From a virus: DNA of 40,660 nucleotides. The stretch's first letter is position 1; each line of letters begins with the position of its first letter. The stretch spans positions 1-40,660 of the IMG/VR virus record IMGVR_UViG_3300037316_000054, one strand, 5' to 3'. Shown piece after piece: positions 8,891 through 39,881 of this stretch. The notes under the pieces were generated by a model that worked only from the letters and a program-made list of their open reading frames with translations, was not told the origin of the DNA and searched no databases. The position numbers were made by a program, and so were the translations under genes.

Positions 8891-9306
8891 TTTTTTAAGC
8901 CTTCCTCGTCCTGCTCAGGCTTGAACGTCTCGATCTCGATCGCAAGAGAAAAGATCGTATCGCGAAGCTCGGGAAGAGCCGTAAGTAGCTCTACCTTGTT
9001 ATCGTAGGTGCAAGGAAGCTCGTTGTCGCCGGCCTTAACACCCTTCCAATCGACAATGACGCCCTTCGCCATTTGCTTGATAAGGATTTCCAGGCTGGTA
9101 GCGTCAGGTAGTTCCTGTCCGCGACGAGTGAGGCCGATATACGGCTTCATGAATTCAGTGCGAGCCTTCTGGCTGACTACACTCTTGAAGCGACGAAGCT
9201 TGACGGAGATTTCTTTGGTGAGCGGGAACCAAGTTCCATTTTCCGCCTTGTCTTCGTCGATAGCGAACGCAGTAGCGATGTTGAGAGTCGATAGATCGAG
9301 TGACAT
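8887..9306 (-). CDS. tail assembly chaperone (gpG-like)
   Basis: 139 aa between tail tube and tape measure. It begins MSLDLSTLNIATAFAIDED and contains the layout of phage tail-assembly chaperones: a short beta-rich start, a Lys/Arg helix, DWKGVKAGDNELPCTYDN and a C-terminal acidic helix (PELRDTIFSLAIEIETF). It ends GLKN-stop with the slippery run A AAA AAC directly before TAA. Start ATG follows AGAAGAG about 7 bases upstream. It should be made in excess over the frameshifted fusion and coat the tape measure before tube polymerisation. Confidence 0.8.
   Translation of the reverse strand: MSLDLSTLNIATAFAIDEDKAENGTWFPLTKEISVKLRRFKSVVSQKARTEFMKPYIGLTRRGQELPDATSLEILIKQMAKGVIVDWKGVKAGDNELPCTYDNKVELLTALPELRDTIFSLAIEIETFKPEQDEEGLKN
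8890..8896 (-). other. programmed -1 ribosomal frameshift site (A AAA AAC, then TAA)
   Basis: On the minus strand the zero-frame codons TTA AAA AAC TAA contain the heptamer A AAA AAC in the right phase, immediately before the stop. After a -1 slip the reading continues CTA ACC GAA TTC and runs open for 120 codons into the next ORF. This matches the G/GT arrangement conserved between tail tube and tape measure in many siphophages. Confidence 0.8.
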
Positions 9307-17338: not shown

Positions 17339-18271
17339 TTACGCCGTGACTGCCGCGTCAGTGATGCCCCATACGCGAGCCGCAGCGCGACCGTGCATGA
17401 TTGCGAGACCAACGAGCCATTCAACGCGAGTACGAAGGACCGGCTTTGCGTTGATTTCACCGAGATCGGTGACTTCCATGGCGCCGTTCTGTAGGCCCGA
17501 CACCATACCGTCGCCAAAGTTGACAACGTAGATGGAAGTGGAGACAGCGGAACCAGCAGGACCGGCTTCGTTGTAGTCGATGATACGAGCACCGGTGTCA
17601 TCGTAGTCAGCGATCAGGATAGGTAGATCGTTGTACATCGTGACGCGGCGACCGAACTCGTCTTCAGCGAAATCGATATCACCACCGACTGCGATGGTAC
17701 GTGCAGCTGCGGTGAGGCGACGACGCATAGCCTTCGACATGACCAGGGCGTTCGGGCTATCGACTAGATCGATTGCCTTGTCCAGAGCCGAAAGAGAAAG
17801 CGGCGAGTTGTTGGACGGAGAAACGAGGTTTGCCGGGATGATCTGGTTGCCGACGATGCGGACACGAAGACCATCGAACTGACGCGGGTCAATAGTGGAG
17901 TCACCGTTGATGACCTTGCCAGCAAGGTAAAGACTCATCGCCTTGACCTTCATGCCCTCATGCTGTGTGCGGACAGCCGGACCACGGGTCTTGATCAATG
18001 CCTTGTCGACATCGAGATCGCCACCAGCGATACGAAGCACTTCAGTCTGCGGGTTCAGCACGCCGACGCTTTCCGGATAGGCTTCATTGAAACCACGGAA
18101 TGCGACGCCAGGAAGAGTACCTTCCTGATTGTAGCTGAATGAGCCACCGATAATGTCCTCGAACGGCAGAACACGGAGAACATCCGAATTTGCCGCGAAC
18201 ATTTCGATAATAGCAGCGCGCTTAACGTCGCCGCTGTTGATCTTGCTCGCTTCAAGTAGAGTGACAGCCAT
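17339..18271 (-). CDS. major capsid protein (HK97-fold type)
   Basis: 310 aa. N-terminus MAVTLLEASKINSGDVKRAA, IGGSFSYNQEGTLPGVAFRG, NEAYPESVGVLNPQTEVLRI, GGDLDVDKALIKTR; middle PNALVMSKAMRRRLTAAART; C-terminus GAMEVTDLGEINAKPVLRTR, EWLVGLAIMHGRAAARVWGI. These match a widespread class of short HK97-like capsid proteins that lack a long delta domain. Preceded by a separate scaffold gene, consistent with a capsid using an independent scaffold. Shine-Dalgarno AGGAGAA lies upstream of the ATG. Confidence 0.93.
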   Translation of the reverse strand: MAVTLLEASKINSGDVKRAAIIEMFAANSDVLRVLPFEDIIGGSFSYNQEGTLPGVAFRGFNEAYPESVGVLNPQTEVLRIAGGDLDVDKALIKTRGPAVRTQHEGMKVKAMSLYLAGKVINGDSTIDPRQFDGLRVRIVGNQIIPANLVSPSNNSPLSLSALDKAIDLVDSPNALVMSKAMRRRLTAAARTIAVGGDIDFAEDEFGRRVTMYNDLPILIADYDDTGARIIDYNEAGPAGSAVSTSIYVVNFGDGMVSGLQNGAMEVTDLGEINAKPVLRTRVEWLVGLAIMHGRAAARVWGITDAAVTA

Positions 18272-26219: not shown

Positions 26220-26535
26220 AGCGAAGCCGAGAGAGCTTCACAGACATAAGCGTCTCCACTCTTCTCGGCCTTGACGCACTGGAAGTACGTCGTGCTAATT
26301 GTTGCCGGATTCTGTTTCTAGGTTCCGGCGGACCCAACTCACGTTAGGAGCTTACGCTGCCATCGCGAGAGGAAGTGCATTGTCATTGGCTGCATTTATT
26401 TAGCCACAGTATCGACACCGTAAGTCCCTACACAATCAGTCGATCCTATTTCAGCCCCATAAGGTTTGGTGGAGCTGTCGGGTACTGCCCCCGAGTGCTC
26501 GATTGTTTCGAAAACCACAGCTTTCGTTCGTCGAT
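26220..26535 (-). ncRNA. ssrA: circularly permuted (two-piece) tmRNA
   Basis: On the minus strand the acceptor piece comes first. It ends with TCGGGGGCAGTACCCGA (the GGCAG-type T arm of alphaproteobacterial tmRNA), then CAGCTCC-ACCA (CCA at 26469-26467). After an 8-nt spacer AACCTTAT the coding piece starts GGGGCTGAAATAGGATCGAC (26458), whose GGGGCTG pairs with CAGCTCC. Helix P2 is TGATTGT with ACAATCG. The tag reading frame (26390-26352) encodes ANDNALPLAMAA-stop, entered at GCC after AAATAAATGCA. Downstream GCCGGA/TCCGGC and GACGTAC/GTGCGTC stems fit the pseudoknot region. The tmRNA rescues stalled ribosomes and tags the product for proteolysis. Outer ends are approximate. Confidence 0.93.
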
Positions 26536-26541
26536 TATTTG

Positions 26542-26570
26542 ACTGTAAACTTCTTGGAACTGTATGTCAA
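26542..26570 (-). promoter_or_regulatory. tmRNA promoter
   Basis: TTGACA (26570-26565), 17-bp spacer, TACAGT (26547-26542). Start would fall near 26535, just before the acceptor piece. No TGACCCG box, so not of the virion class. Confidence 0.8.
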
Positions 26571-26579
26571 GCAAAAAGT

Positions 26580-26792
26580 TTAGAGATGACCGAAATAACC
26601 GCCGCTATAGCCGCCGAACAAGGCTAATAGGACGATGATGATGATGATGATCCAGAGGAGATTGCCTCCACCGTAACCTGGACCGGGACCGCCGCCAGCA
26701 ACGACTGGTCCGCGATTGTAGTTGGTGTGCCAATAGTATCCGCCGCCTCCGACGCCGAACACGAGAACCAAGATGATGATGACGAGAAGCAT
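26580..26792 (-). CDS. two-helix membrane protein with Gly-rich loop, 70 aa
   Basis: ATG at 26792 with GGAAAG 9 bp upstream (the in-frame TTG at 26816 is less likely). First helix MLLVIIILVLVFGVGGGGYY, loop NRGPVVAGGGPGPGYGGGN, second helix LLWIIIIIIVLLALFGGYSG. Similar in style to DUF3309-type mini membrane proteins but with a longer loop. Has its own strong promoter. Function unknown. Confidence 0.75.
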   Translation of the reverse strand: MLLVIIILVLVFGVGGGGYYWHTNYNRGPVVAGGGPGPGYGGGNLLWIIIIIIVLLALFGGYSGGYFGHL

Positions 26793-29636: not shown

Positions 29637-29874
29637 TGTCGTCATACCTCTCTATACGGTACCTGATACCGTTTCTCTCAACCCGAAGATGGGTGACATC
29701 TTCGTCAAGCTCGATTTCCTCAGCTTCACGAAGCCGCTTAACAAGGCTCTCGAAAGAGATGAAGCCGTAGTCACCGCTCGGTGAATTTTCCTCAACCACT
29801 TTGTGATTAAGTAAATCGTAGAGCATCACCTGCTTAGCTCTCACGAGCGGCTTGACTTCGACGACCGTTGTCAT
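29620..29874 (-). CDS. hypothetical protein, paralog of the next gene upstream, 84 aa
   Basis: MLYDLLNHKVVEENSPSGDY, GFISFESLVKRLREAEEIEL, VERNGIRYRIER align along the whole length with the gene at 29871-30053. Adds a 15-residue N-terminal extension (MTTVVEVKPLVRAKQ). ATGA overlap with its paralog. Tandem duplication, now diverged. Function unknown. Confidence 0.72.
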   Translation of the reverse strand: MTTVVEVKPLVRAKQVMLYDLLNHKVVEENSPSGDYGFISFESLVKRLREAEEIELDEDVTHLRVERNGIRYRIERYDDNEHGN

Positions 29875-30053
29875 TTTCGCTCCAAGCGGAAGGTGATTCC
29901 GCGTTTGTCAATTTCAAAAAATGTAACGACTTCATCGTCGTGAAACTCACGAGCCACACGAAGCTGTTCGACAAGCCGCTCGAAAGAGATGAAGCCGCTG
30001 AGTCCGCTCCGACTCTCTTCGACCACTTTGTGATGGATAAGATCGTAGATCAT
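29871..30053 (-). CDS. hypothetical protein, paralog of the gene downstream, 60 aa
   Basis: MIYDLIHHKVVEESRSGLSG, FISFERLVEQLRVAREFHDD, IDKRGITFRLERK. Same order of strands and helices as the 84-aa protein. Start chosen at ATG 30053, which overlaps the upstream stop (ATGA). Confidence 0.7.
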   Translation of the reverse strand: MIYDLIHHKVVEESRSGLSGFISFERLVEQLRVAREFHDDEVVTFFEIDKRGITFRLERK

Positions 30054-30268: not shown

Positions 30269-30375
30269 GCTGGACTCCAATGATCAGGCGTGCTGCCGCC
30301 TCCTCCTCTAAAGATGATCGCGAACAGTGCCGCTGCAACGATGACGCAAGTCAGTGCTCCGAGATCATACCACAT
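30265..30375 (-). CDS. 36-aa single-helix membrane protein
   Basis: MWYDLGALTCVIVAAALFAI followed by IFRGGGGSTPDHWSPA. ATG overlaps the DUF7768-like stop (TAATG) and its TGA overlaps the next ATG. One transmembrane helix, short charged tail. Confidence 0.65.
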   Translation of the reverse strand: MWYDLGALTCVIVAAALFAIIFRGGGGSTPDHWSPA

Positions 30376-30848
30376 TACGCCGCTACCGGTACCGTCACCG
30401 GCTCGCCATGCAATAAATCGTGATAGTAGTGGCGGCTGGAAAAGATGCGGCGATATTCGACTGGAATGCCTTGCTCATGAGCGCGCTTGATCCCATATTC
30501 CATTCCTCTCGATATGCCGCGATCGACGTAAACAACGCTGGCGTCCGCCACGTCGCGCCATGCGAGGCCGGCGTCGATCCCGAGCTGGCGTTCTGTCGGG
30601 ATCGTGTCGTCCAGAATGCCCGGTTGGGTGTAAAGGATATGACTCGCAATCGGCGCTTCTCCCCTCAAAAGGGAGTCACGCACGGCATCGCGTGCATATT
30701 CGACGTTGGCTTCGATCGTCGCTGCGTCGCCCGCGTATGGCGATTCGACAATGACGAGACGCTTGTTGGTGAGAGTTGACGGAATATTGACCATATTTCC
30801 GAGTACGAGATTGCCAGCGTGAAGATCGCCGCCTACATTGAGTTCCAT
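30375..30848 (-). CDS. DUF7768-like (nucleoside deoxyribosyltransferase-like fold) protein
   Basis: 157 aa from ATG 30848 (GTG 30857 possible). RLVIVESPYAGDAATIEANV, YARDAVRDSLLRGEAPIASH, LYTQPGILDDTIPTERQLGI, GLAWRDVADASVVYVDRGIS, GMEYGIKRAHEQGIPVEYR: the E-S-P-Y-A-G start and D-x-G-x-S-x-GM motif mark a Rossmann-like domain common in phages, related in pattern to nucleoside 2-deoxyribosyltransferase / DUF1937 proteins. Possibly nucleotide metabolism or signalling. First gene of the minus accessory block. Confidence 0.78.
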   Translation of the reverse strand: MELNVGGDLHAGNLVLGNMVNIPSTLTNKRLVIVESPYAGDAATIEANVEYARDAVRDSLLRGEAPIASHILYTQPGILDDTIPTERQLGIDAGLAWRDVADASVVYVDRGISRGMEYGIKRAHEQGIPVEYRRIFSSRHYYHDLLHGEPVTVPVAA

Positions 30849-30884
30849 CAGATTCACTGCCTGTTAACCATGAATGACTTGCCT

Positions 30885-32366: not shown

Positions 32367-32566
32367 AAGACAACCTCGAAGCGATTCGGCTCAAGACTCC
32401 TGGCAAGGTGATCTGGATACTGCCGCAGGACGCGACCGCGCGCGCGATCGTCATCAGCGTCGCCACAAGGCACGGAGACGCAACTGTCGGTTTCGTCGCC
32501 GGCAGCGATCACGTCCATCCAAAGTCGTACGGAGAGCTGGCAGCTTCAATCAGAAGGCTGAAATGA
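32363..32566 (+). CDS. hypothetical protein, 67 aa
   Basis: TTG start at a TTGA overlap. KDNLEAIRLKTPGKVIWILP, ATARAIVISVATRHGDATVG: small alpha/beta fold. ATGA overlap with the HNH gene. TTG start lowers confidence. Confidence 0.55.
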   Translation: MKDNLEAIRLKTPGKVIWILPQDATARAIVISVATRHGDATVGFVAGSDHVHPKSYGELAASIRRLK

Positions 32567-32973
32567 GCGCACTGTCACGACCACACCATTATGCTACTCG
32601 AAAAGCCGAGGCTCTTGAATATCTCGGCGGAGTTTGCGTCGAATGCGGAACGACCAAGAGTTTGGAGTTTCACCACAAAGACACAAACGAGAAAGAGTTT
32701 AATGTTACCAAAATACTAGATACCAGCTCATTCGAAACACTCAAAAAAGAACTTGATAAGTGTGAGCTTCGTTGCCATAAACACCACAGACAGGTTCATA
32801 TACCTGAACCTAAGCATGGAACATACAGCTGCTATATGCGTCGCAAATGTAGATGCGAATTATGTAGAGCTGCCAATGCAAAACACTCGCGCGATTGCAG
32901 AGCAAAACAAAACGCTCGCCGAGGGACGAGCGTTTTGAGCCAAACCGGTCGAAAAGATGGAGAAGATATGTGA
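32563..32973 (+). CDS. HNH endonuclease (free-standing, homing-like)
   Basis: 136 aa. CVECGTTKSLEFHHKDTNEK and later LDKCELRCHKHHRQVH supply the two Cys pairs and the HH...N...H catalytic core; a second Cys cluster (KCRCELCRAANAKHSRDC) follows. More AT-rich than its neighbours, suggesting recent arrival. A strong hairpin terminator lies inside its last codons. It may be a mobile gene and may also nick at nearby sites. Confidence 0.82.
   Translation: MSALSRPHHYATRKAEALEYLGGVCVECGTTKSLEFHHKDTNEKEFNVTKILDTSSFETLKKELDKCELRCHKHHRQVHIPEPKHGTYSCYMRRKCRCELCRAANAKHSRDCRAKQNARRGTSVLSQTGRKDGEDM
32909..32936. terminator. bidirectional terminator AAAACGCTCG / CGAGCGTTTT
   Basis: Ten-bp perfect stem with an 8-nt loop. 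On the minus strand it is followed by GTTTTGC, making CGTTTTGTTTTG, so it best ends the minus-strand noncoding transcript. On the plus strand the tail is the TTTT of the stem, ending the plus operon. It lies within the HNH frame. Confidence 0.82.
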
Positions 32974-33342
32974 ACCGTTAGCCCTCAAACAACCAAGGAC
33001 ACTTCAGGTTAGCAGCACGGTTCCACGCGCTTTTCGCTTCCAGTTTCCTGGTTGCTTAGCTGACCCTACACCTTGCACTCGCCATCCCGCGTACGCCCGT
33101 GAGGGTAGTACATTGCTTTCGGAAAGGTCTATGCTAGTTCGTCAAATTTCTGCTCCGTAAGCTACCAAGCAACCGGTAACACTTCAGACAGTCGGCACGG
33201 AGCCACGCGGAGTTAATCTACGTTACCGCAGACCCTAGACTATCCTACTTCCAGCACTCGCCATTTCAGGAACACCATTTCTGGCTTTCATTGCTTCTGA
33301 TAAGGTCTGTGCTAATTCAAGTCCGCCGCCTCTCTGTTTCGA
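32937..33342 (-). ncRNA. tandem pair of a structured noncoding RNA (~185 nt units)
   Basis: Read on the minus strand, two units (about 33354-33170 and 33169-32980) share TAGCTT, AGCA-x-AGACCTT, GAA-GCAATG, GGCGAGTGC, AGGGTC, GCGTGG-x-x-CCGTGC and CTGAAGTGT in the same order. Helix evidence: GACCTT pairs with AGGGTC (one U-G pair on the minus RNA, which would be an A-C mismatch on the plus RNA). A second stem is CGGTAAC/GTTACCG in unit 1 and AACCAGGA/TCCTTGGTT in unit 2, a compensatory change. There is no matching ORF. A promoter precedes it and a terminator ends it. No known RNA family recognised. Confidence 0.7.
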
Positions 33343-33348
33343 TGTCCC

Positions 33349-33376
33349 AAGCTACCACACCCCAAACGCCTGTCAA
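33349..33376 (-). promoter_or_regulatory. promoter of the tandem noncoding RNA
   Basis: TTGACA (33376-33371), 16-bp spacer, TAGCTT (33354-33349). TAGCTT recurs at the start of the second unit, but without a TTGACA, so the second unit is probably made by processing of one transcript. Confidence 0.6.
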
Positions 33377-33452
33377 CAGAAAAAGCGAGAAAAAAGTGAG
33401 AAAAAAAATTAGCCAGCTAACTCAACACGATAGCGTAGGCAGGCTGGCGCAG

Positions 33453-34306: not shown

Positions 34307-34382
34307 TGGCGGGAGAGGCAGGACTCGAACCTGCGAATTACGATTTTGGAGATCGTTGCTGTAGCCGCTGAGCCACACTCCC
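34307..34382 (-). tRNA. tRNA-Trp(CCA)
   Basis: Anticodon arm ACGAT-CTCCAAA-ATCGT, T arm GCAGG-TTCGAGT-CCTGC, CCA encoded. Acceptor GGGAGTG/CTCTCCC has one T-T mismatch at pair 6-67. Confidence 0.9.
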
Positions 34383-38417: not shown

Positions 38418-38509
38418 TGGCGGAGGGTGTGAGATTCGAACTCACGAGCCGAGATGAATCGGTTGTTCGCTTTCCAAGCGAGTGGGATAAGCCTCTCCCC
38501 CAACCCTCC
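38418..38509 (-). tRNA. tRNA-Ser(GGA)
   Basis: Class II; acceptor GGAGGGT/ACCCTCC, anticodon loop TTGGAAA, T arm GTGAG-TTCGAAT-CTCAC, CCA encoded. The HNH frame runs through it. Confidence 0.9.
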
Positions 38510-38918
38510 TTTTGTCTCTTCTTGACGTATTCACCTTATCCGTTTTCAATGTCTTTTTATTTCCGCCTTTATAGGTTTCAGTTTGACTGTGACAATTCGG
38601 ACAAAGTAAACGACAATTTGACAGACGGCTATTATCTGGATTGCCGTCTATGTGATCAAGCTGCAAAGTAAGTGGTTTATCCTGCCACTCTTCGATACCA
38701 CACTCAAAGCAAGCAGGTGATTTTTCTAGCAGGTATCTTTTAATTGCATCCTTAAAAAGTTGTTGATCAGTTTCAATCAGTTTCTTCTTTTCTGTCCACT
38801 GAAAATCAGCAAAGCACTGATTTGAACAAAACGTCTTACTCTTACTTGTAAAACAAGGATGGAACAGCTCACCGCAACTCAAACAGTTAGTTACAGATTT
38901 TTGTCGAACAGCTGGCAT
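38442..38918 (-). CDS. HNH endonuclease in the tRNA array
   Basis: 158 aa from ATG 38918 (AAGAGA upstream). N-terminal CLSCGELFHPCF and FCSNQC form a zinc finger; CFECGIEEWQDKPLTLQLDH, IDGNPDNSRLSNCRLLCPNC, HSQTETYKGG give the HNH core (H-x-D-x-x-N ... C-x2-C-H). AT-rich relative to neighbours. Its last ~23 codons lie inside tRNA-Ser(GGA). Likely a mobile homing-type gene inserted between tRNAs. Confidence 0.82.
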   Translation of the reverse strand: MPAVRQKSVTNCLSCGELFHPCFTSKSKTFCSNQCFADFQWTEKKKLIETDQQLFKDAIKRYLLEKSPACFECGIEEWQDKPLTLQLDHIDGNPDNSRLSNCRLLCPNCHSQTETYKGGNKKTLKTDKVNTSRRDKRRVGGEAYPTRLESEQPIHLGS

Positions 38919-38933
38919 TATATTTCTCTTAAA

Positions 38934-39009
38934 TGGTGATCCCGGCTGGATTCGAACCAGCACCTTAGCGTTCGAAGCGCTATCGTCTATCCATTAACTG
39001 TACGGGACC
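38934..39009 (-). tRNA. tRNA-Arg(TCG)
   Basis: Acceptor GGTCCCG/CGGGATC, anticodon arm TAGCG-CTTCGAA-CGCTA, T arm GCTGG-TTCGAAT-CCAGC, CCA encoded. Shares acceptor and T arm with Arg(TCT) at 35432. Confidence 0.92.
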
Positions 39010-39014
39010 TAAAT

Positions 39015-39136
39015 CTTCATTCACAGCTTGCGAAAACAGCTCCACGTTCTGTTTAGACGGCGTAGTTCCGCTCGCTTCAACGCTGCCTTATCGGGTAGAT
39101 ACAGAACAAACTCCCTATCGCAAGCTCTGAATGAAG
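39015..39136. ncRNA. candidate structured RNA, 122 nt, closed by an 18-bp stem
   Basis: CTTCATTCACAGCTTGCG (39015-39032) pairs with CGCAAGCTCTGAATGAAG (39119-39136), 17 of 18. Inside is GTTCTGT/ACAGAAC and a further GCGT/ACGC. No ORF. It lies next to the last tRNA and may be processed with it. Strand uncertain. Confidence 0.6.
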
Positions 39137-39140
39137 ACTT

Positions 39141-39169
39141 ACTTTCCCGTACTTGAAGTACGGGAAAGT
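39141..39169 (-). terminator. strong hairpin after the membrane mini-gene
   Basis: ACTTTCCCGTACTT / AAGTACGGGAAAGT, a near-perfect palindrome of about 14 bp adjoining the stop at 39169. No U-tract on the minus side, so efficiency is unsure. Confidence 0.5.
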
Positions 39170-39336
39170 TAGAAGATTTGGACTACCTCCAATGCACGTA
39201 AAGCTACGAACAATATGAAAGTCACTCCCACGAAAGCCAAGGCTCGAACCAAACCTCGAAAACTCCTTGACGATACAGCTTGTAGAATGCCAGAGATCAC
39301 TACCGCCTCTGCTAAGCTTCTGAAAGGTTCTTCCAT
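39169..39336 (-). CDS. small membrane protein, 55 aa
   Basis: MEEPFRSLAEAVVISGILQA then VRALAFVGVTFILFVALRAL, one or two membrane segments. ATG overlaps the HNH stop (TAATG). Confidence 0.62.
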   Translation of the reverse strand: MEEPFRSLAEAVVISGILQAVSSRSFRGLVRALAFVGVTFILFVALRALEVVQIF

Positions 39337-39881
39337 TACTTTGCCTCTAGCTCCGAATCCCAATATAGGTAGTCAATCCAGGATTCGTGAAGGTAGTTCG
39401 GAGGAAACGAAAGCTTGTTATGCTCCAACTCCTTGAAGGTTGGCTCGTAGGGCATCCGCTTTGGCTTCATATCACGTCTGCGATCCTTTAGGGTATTGCA
39501 GTCGTTACATGCGGCGACGACATTCTCCCAGGTAGTTAGTCCACCGTCGCACTGCGGGATAACATGATCATACGTCAGGTGACGCATATCCTTCTCGCCG
39601 CAATACTGACATCTGAACTTATCACGCAGGAAGACGTTGAACCGATTGAAGCTGACGTGCTCGGGCCTTTTTATGTATCTTTTTAAGGCCACGACGCTCG
39701 GCAGGTTCATACTAACGGAGGGACTGTGAACCACCTTGTCATAGTCGGCGACGCGAACGTGCGTGCCTTCGTAGATGCCTTTGAGAGCGCGATCCTGGGG
39801 GATCGTCTTAAGCGGAAAGGTTTCAAGTGGTCTGTAGTCGCCGTTCAGCAGAAGAACGGGATACTTGTTTATGTCGAACAT
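39336..39881 (-). CDS. HNH endonuclease (PVLLLNGDYRPLE type)
   Basis: 181 aa. N-terminus YPVLLLNGDYRPLETFPLKT and IKRPEHVSFNRFNVFLRDKF, then RCQYCGEKDMRHLTYDHVIP, GGLTTWENVVAACNDCNTLK: C-x2-C, DH, N and C-x2-C of a full HNH centre. This subtype is widespread in bacteria and phages, often as a single-copy gene, and is not obviously mobile. Ribosome site GAGG about 10 bp upstream. Confidence 0.9.
   Translation of the reverse strand: MFDINKYPVLLLNGDYRPLETFPLKTIPQDRALKGIYEGTHVRVADYDKVVHSPSVSMNLPSVVALKRYIKRPEHVSFNRFNVFLRDKFRCQYCGEKDMRHLTYDHVIPQCDGGLTTWENVVAACNDCNTLKDRRRDMKPKRMPYEPTFKELEHNKLSFPPNYLHESWIDYLYWDSELEAK

Follow-up and report, generated by a model that had tools for sequence, protein, structure and literature searches.

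A probable new structured RNA gene of two tandem units near the tRNA genes of a phiCbK-like phage

We identified a probable new structured RNA gene, an orphan represented so far by a single case, in a stretch of phage DNA (hereafter the window: a complete IMG/VR virus record, IMGVR_UViG_3300037316_000054, analysed over its full 40,660 bases). The gene consists of two tandem units, which are listed here with the features that surround them:

33150 to 33318, minus strand: RNA unit A, 169 nt, defined by unit-to-unit alignment, shared blocks and consensus pairing
32970 to 33140, minus strand: RNA unit B, 171 nt, defined in the same way
33349 to 33376, minus strand: promoter-like site TTGACA-N16-TAGCTT, with TTGACA at 33376–33371 and TGG before the −10; overlaps the start of a possible plus-strand ORF (33342)
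32908 to 32937, minus strand: intrinsic-terminator-like hairpin of 13 bp followed by TTTTG, from the terminator scan
32566 to 32973, plus strand: HNH endonuclease gene (135 aa, phrog_4234), convergent with the RNA gene, its 3′ end overlapping the RNA terminator

The two units, spaced about 178 nt from start to start, are truly homologous: their local alignment scored 45, with 13.7 ± 2.5 for dinucleotide shuffles (z = 12.4), and none of 2000 shuffles reached this score, the best of them scoring 26. Conservation takes the form of short blocks with variable stretches between them, the colinear blocks common to both units being GAAYTAGCAYAGACCTT, AAGCAATG, ATGGCGAGTGC, TAGGGTC, CGCGTGGnnCCGTGC, CTGAAGTGT, GGTTGYTTG and GCTnACGG. 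The longest of these, ATGGCGAGTGC, sits in differing frames in A and B, and gap lengths are not divisible by 3; on this sequence comparison we read the units as non-coding. A short ORF running from a conserved ATG to the conserved TAGGGTC (18 and 15 codons in the two units) was rejected because the common blocks fall in different frames. A first-pass annotation of this DNA had described two tandem copies with shared blocks in one order and no reading frame, and both points were borne out.

Single-sequence folding energy was ordinary, with z-scores of 0.74 (minus strand) and 0.03 (plus strand) for the whole region and of −0.37 and −0.41 for the units, and therefore the argument for an RNA comes from the comparison of the two units and not from stability by itself. 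Using a plain MAFFT alignment, RNAalifold gave −30.9 kcal/mol on the minus strand versus −18.3 ± 3.7 for column-shuffled alignments (P = 0.0025), and the ungapped 3′ half by itself gave P = 0.002; the plus strand reached −20.35 (P = 0.0075), which is about 10 kcal/mol weaker. Pairs changed on both sides made up 10 of the 35 predicted by RNAalifold and 8 of the 34 in a hand-built model (P1, P1b, P1d, P4, P5 and PK5), all of this covariation being between two paralogues in one genome. Every one of the 34 hand-built pairs is standard in both units and sliding the partners by 1–3 columns left pairing at only 32–44%, a control which is lenient because the model was built, partly by eye, on the two sequences it is tested on. 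Counting helices over all column pairs gave weaker support for doubly changed helices (P = 0.13–0.33) and P = 0.027 for helices of at least 6 pairs. These alignment-based predictions indicate that A and B share foldable structure beyond chance, with the following elements:

33251 to 33315, minus strand: P1 domain of unit A, with P1 at 33315–33309/33257–33251 and inner helices P1b and P1d
33302 to 33308, minus strand: AGACCUU of unit A, the 5′ strand of PK2; 3′ strand AGGGUCU at 33236–33230, duplex −8.5 kcal/mol
33290 to 33296, minus strand: AAGCAAU of unit A, predicted to pair with the P5 loop GUUGCUU at 33173–33167 (PK5)
33152 to 33203, minus strand: P4-P5 domain of unit A, with P4 at 33203–33197/33158–33152 and P5 at 33180–33173/33168–33161
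33062 to 33137, minus strand: 5′ domain of unit B, with P1 at 33137–33131/33078–33072, PK2 GACCUU at 33129–33124 and AGGGUC at 33067–33062, and AAGCAAU at 33118–33112
32972 to 33023, minus strand: P4-P5 domain of unit B, with P4 at 33023–33017/32978–32972, P5 at 33000–32993/32988–32981 and loop GUUGUUU at 32993–32987

Two tertiary contacts are predicted. In A and B alike, pairing is possible between the conserved AAGCAAU and the P5 loop GUUGYUU, and PK2 (GACCUU/AGGGUC) is present in both units; PK2 is invariant and therefore speaks neither for nor against the fold. Its U-G pair forms on the minus strand and fails on the plus strand, in agreement with what the first-pass annotation had noted. 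That annotation had also pointed to a stem which changes sequence between the units while keeping its pairing. This stem, P3, does exist in both (CGGUAAC/GUUACCG in A and AACCAGGA/UCCUUGGUU in B), but it is not the best pairing available: as a linker complement it reached P = 0.25 in A and P = 0.024 in B, and its 3′ strand is better paired with a downstream strand to form P5, with P4 enclosing. P3 may be an alternative conformation which competes with P5 for one strand. A core composed of the P3 stem and a P4 “pseudoknot” was dropped; RNAalifold gives a nested P4-around-P5 domain which uses the 3′ strand of P3.

The minus strand appears to be the RNA strand, as had been proposed, and this call rests on 14 G-U cells: 74 of 76 pairing cells are standard on the minus strand (14 G-U, no A-C) versus 60 of 76 on the plus strand, a comparison biased toward the minus strand since its helices were picked there. 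The genes on either side of the RNA are on the plus strand, so that the antisense arrangement that had been reported also stood. The promoter and terminator said to bracket the units were found in part as described: the TTGACA and the 13-bp hairpin are present, but the −10 (TAGCTT) is a weak match, the promoter-like site is absent from the output of the consensus promoter scan and the hairpin lies just outside the range first given. Terminator-like sites occur in this region at chance level; the hairpin at 32937–32908 has the longest stem among those listed and is correctly placed. Transcription from the one to the other and the ends of the RNA are putative. No credible same-strand gene is found within about 2 kb downstream, which argues against a cis-regulator; the nearest, at 30375–30857 on the minus strand, encodes a DUF7768/nucleoside 2-deoxyribosyltransferase-like protein, close relatives of which occur across many unrelated phages.

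The major capsid protein of the window (17339–18271, minus strand) is nearest to that of Microcystis phage Mwe-JY26 (70%) and then to those of Mesorhizobium phage Cp1R7A-A1 and the phiCbK-like Caulobacter and Brevundimonas phages (about 62%). The window also carries about 20 tRNA genes and one tmRNA gene, every one on the minus strand. From this capsid affinity and tRNA/tmRNA content we therefore read the window as a fragment of a phiCbK-like siphovirus, the host of which is probably alphaproteobacterial. Mwe-JY26 (PP438418; loci L049 and L180) has a stated cyanobacterial host, yet its capsid gene is of the alphaproteobacterial phiCbK-like type. The position of the RNA beside an HNH gene and close to the tRNAs was as originally described, with tRNA-Trp at 34307 and the array about 1 kb from the units. 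A domain search found no second domain in the HNH protein. Two more HNH endonuclease genes lie in or beside the tRNA array (38442–38963 and 39336–39881, both minus strand).

We searched widely for relatives of the units. Rfam at its own thresholds returned nothing at this site, and cmscan of 32900–33420 against all 4227 Rfam families at E values up to 10 gave nothing credible, the sole match being a chance one to HOTAIR_2. Distant blastn against 50,697 named phage records yielded only short chance matches, and neither a plasmid search nor nhmmer over all fetched loci found a relative. Covariance models run over about 70 phage records were equally negative. Of these, model R1 found nothing in 43 IMG/VR records related by major capsid protein and 16 named relatives (including Lacusarx, Cp1R7A-A1, phiCbK, CcrColossus and Ruegeria phage V10), nor, when run unfiltered, in parts of the nearest records; model R2, with an improved structure, found nothing in about half of the records of R1. 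Five pattern scans with the conserved blocks, which demand exact blocks, gave only chance matches among those listed. Many of the IMG/VR records are fragments. No copy of the unit was found in the surroundings of relatives of the HNH gene, and a neighbouring 192-aa protein had no relatives that we could find.

Individual pattern matches were also rejected. Loci L002 and L003 are chance matches inside coding genes, L203 and L204 both belong to a single small-protein gene, and L200 falls within a 167-aa open frame. Weak matches at 8947 and 9599 of L211, beside a phage tmRNA, fall either within genes or within that tmRNA. The model confirmed none of three Bacillota loci from the genome pattern scan and none of the 17 loci from the AAGCAATG/TGGCGAGTGC scan; the AGACCTT/AAGCAATG scan gave at least 120 loci, with no model confirmation among the matches listed. 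With no match to a known family and no counterpart found in another genome, the RNA makes a good candidate new phage RNA, but it is a single case. The first-pass annotation was right that it is unrecognised, and neither a coding homologue nor an Rfam match, which it had named as evidence against its claim, came to light. Its suggestion of a new family is not supported as put, since the searches turned up no homologue beyond this contig and the covariation is that of two paralogues.

The RNA bears some resemblance to known phage RNAs. GOLLD and ROOL are phage RNAs found by tRNA islands; both form cages of RNA alone, the function of which is unknown (PMC12286853). In mycobacteria GOLLD, together with an HNH gene, is frequently found at tRNA clusters (PMC9569102). 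Like GOLLD, a large structured non-coding RNA of phages and tRNA clusters, our RNA adjoins an HNH gene and a tRNA cluster; however, it has no match to the GOLLD covariance model even at an E value of 10, and it is about 430 nt long with two homologous units, where many GOLLD RNAs are longer than 800 nt and have a single conserved 3′ region (PMC12286853). ROOL is likewise often near tRNA islands in phages, with several pseudoknots and no known protein partner or function (PMC12286853), but its covariance model does not match here either and the ROOL studied is 659 nt long and forms a nanocage (PMC12286853). The parallel is thus one of setting and the RNA, on these comparisons, appears to be neither. 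Phage tmRNA is also pseudoknotted, lies in the same genome region and is carried by this phage and its relatives, but the units match no tmRNA model (Rfam, ARAGORN), display neither the tRNA-like domain nor the tag reading frame of a tmRNA, and have no sequence similarity to the tmRNA of the window (z = 1.5 and 0.6). Tandem riboswitches or attenuators share the two tandem copies and one strand with alternative pairings (P3 versus P5); in contrast, the present RNA ends in a terminator with no same-strand gene behind it and has no U-run after P5. HEARO/IscB omega RNA is encoded next to an IscB-type RuvC-HNH nuclease, but here the adjacent HNH protein has 135 aa and no further domain was found in it; this RNA too has no Rfam match at the units.

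We slightly favour reading the locus as a stand-alone gene that encodes a two-copy structured non-coding RNA, most likely acting in trans in a translation-takeover region. A minus-strand transcript of about 430 nt would extend between the TTGACA site (33376) and the terminator (32908). In each copy P1-P1b-P1d would form a hairpin domain at the 5′ end and P4 around P5 a domain at the 3′ end, the two tied together by GACCUU/AGGGUC and by docking of AAGCAAU on the P5 loop GUUGYUU. As a structural RNA acting in trans among the tRNAs and tmRNA, it would offer two copies of the motifs AUGGCGA, CUGAAGUGU and CGCGUGG, unpaired in the model, to a partner which may be the ribosome, a host RNA-binding protein or further copies of itself. 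This role is suggested by the putative terminated stand-alone transcript and the duplicated compact fold among tRNAs and tmRNA, that is, by position and by duplication of the whole module; in phage Lacusarx, tRNAs, tmRNA, tadA, rtcB and a sigma factor are grouped in one takeover-type module (PMC5648845, in agreement with the Lacusarx annotation). A complete fold duplicated in tandem, with conserved motifs that the model leaves unpaired, in a tRNA-rich phage, would also suit a decoy or sponge for protein or RNA binding, titrating a host factor such as a defence nuclease or translation regulator; no known decoy motif was recognised and we think this unlikely. Less likely still is an antisense regulator of the HNH gene or the possible plus-strand ORF (33342), acting by base pairing or transcriptional collision with the units merely stabilising it. 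The geometry is convergent and the tail covers the last ~65 nt of the HNH gene, whose 3′ end the terminator overlaps, but the overlap takes in no more than the terminator hairpin and the ends of the RNA. Since the conserved blocks are situated outside the HNH gene, this reading leaves the unit-to-unit conservation unexplained.

The near-zero MFE z-scores and the putative nature of the transcript leave a small chance that the units act as DNA, for example as a duplicated origin, packaging or recombination region, elements in which imperfect tandem copies are common; against this, pairs are compensated on both sides, the 14 G-U cells are strand-specific and a terminator and promoter-like site flank the units. 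We consider it very improbable that they are a structured element of a plus-strand operon between the HNH gene and the next plus-strand ORFs: neighbouring genes have this orientation and the plus-strand consensus fold beats shuffles (P = 0.0075), but that strand loses 14 pairing cells, its consensus energy is weaker by 10 kcal/mol and GACCUU/AGGGUC fails on it. There is an equally slight chance that the orphan units, for which no homologues were found, are degenerate remnants of two copies of some gene or mobile element and no longer have a function; their conservation is blockwise with compensated pairs and not uniform. Returning to the trans-acting RNA, a rather improbable extension would be that it belongs to a new class of phage RNA whose units each carry a loop-receptor pair, AAGCAAU/GUUGYUU, which can also act between units or molecules, so that the transcripts build RNA-only multimers. 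Such multimers would resemble the assemblies of GOLLD and ROOL, large structured RNAs by phage tRNA islands which are among the least understood in bacteria, but with unrelated folds. A smaller, twin-unit RNA with another fold in the same niche would suggest repeated recruitment by tRNA-rich phages, and would give a more tractable system for asking what such RNAs do.

Several other elements of the window were observed. Just upstream of tRNA-Arg, at 39015–39170 on the minus strand, lies an unannotated and very stable rod-like RNA (folding z = −7.2; 0 of 200 shuffles as good), with a closing stem of 18 bp, an inner helix GUUCUGU/ACAGAAC and a 13-bp hairpin before it; it had no credible match in Rfam and none among named phages. 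Repeats at 29722–29826 and 29952–30053 (58 nt and 38 nt, at 78–79%, spacing ~230) are probably duplicated small minus-strand genes. The tmRNA gene of the window (26301–26581, minus strand) is of the alpha type, as are those in the phiCbK-like relatives Cp1R7A-A1 and CcrColossus and in two IMG/VR records (loci L181, L182, L187 and L188). The Cp1R7A-A1 tmRNA (58677–59062) falls within an unannotated gap of the public record, and the predicted tmRNA tags vary among these phages (AANDNALPLAMAA, VAANDNHFEARALAA and ANDNEALLLAA).
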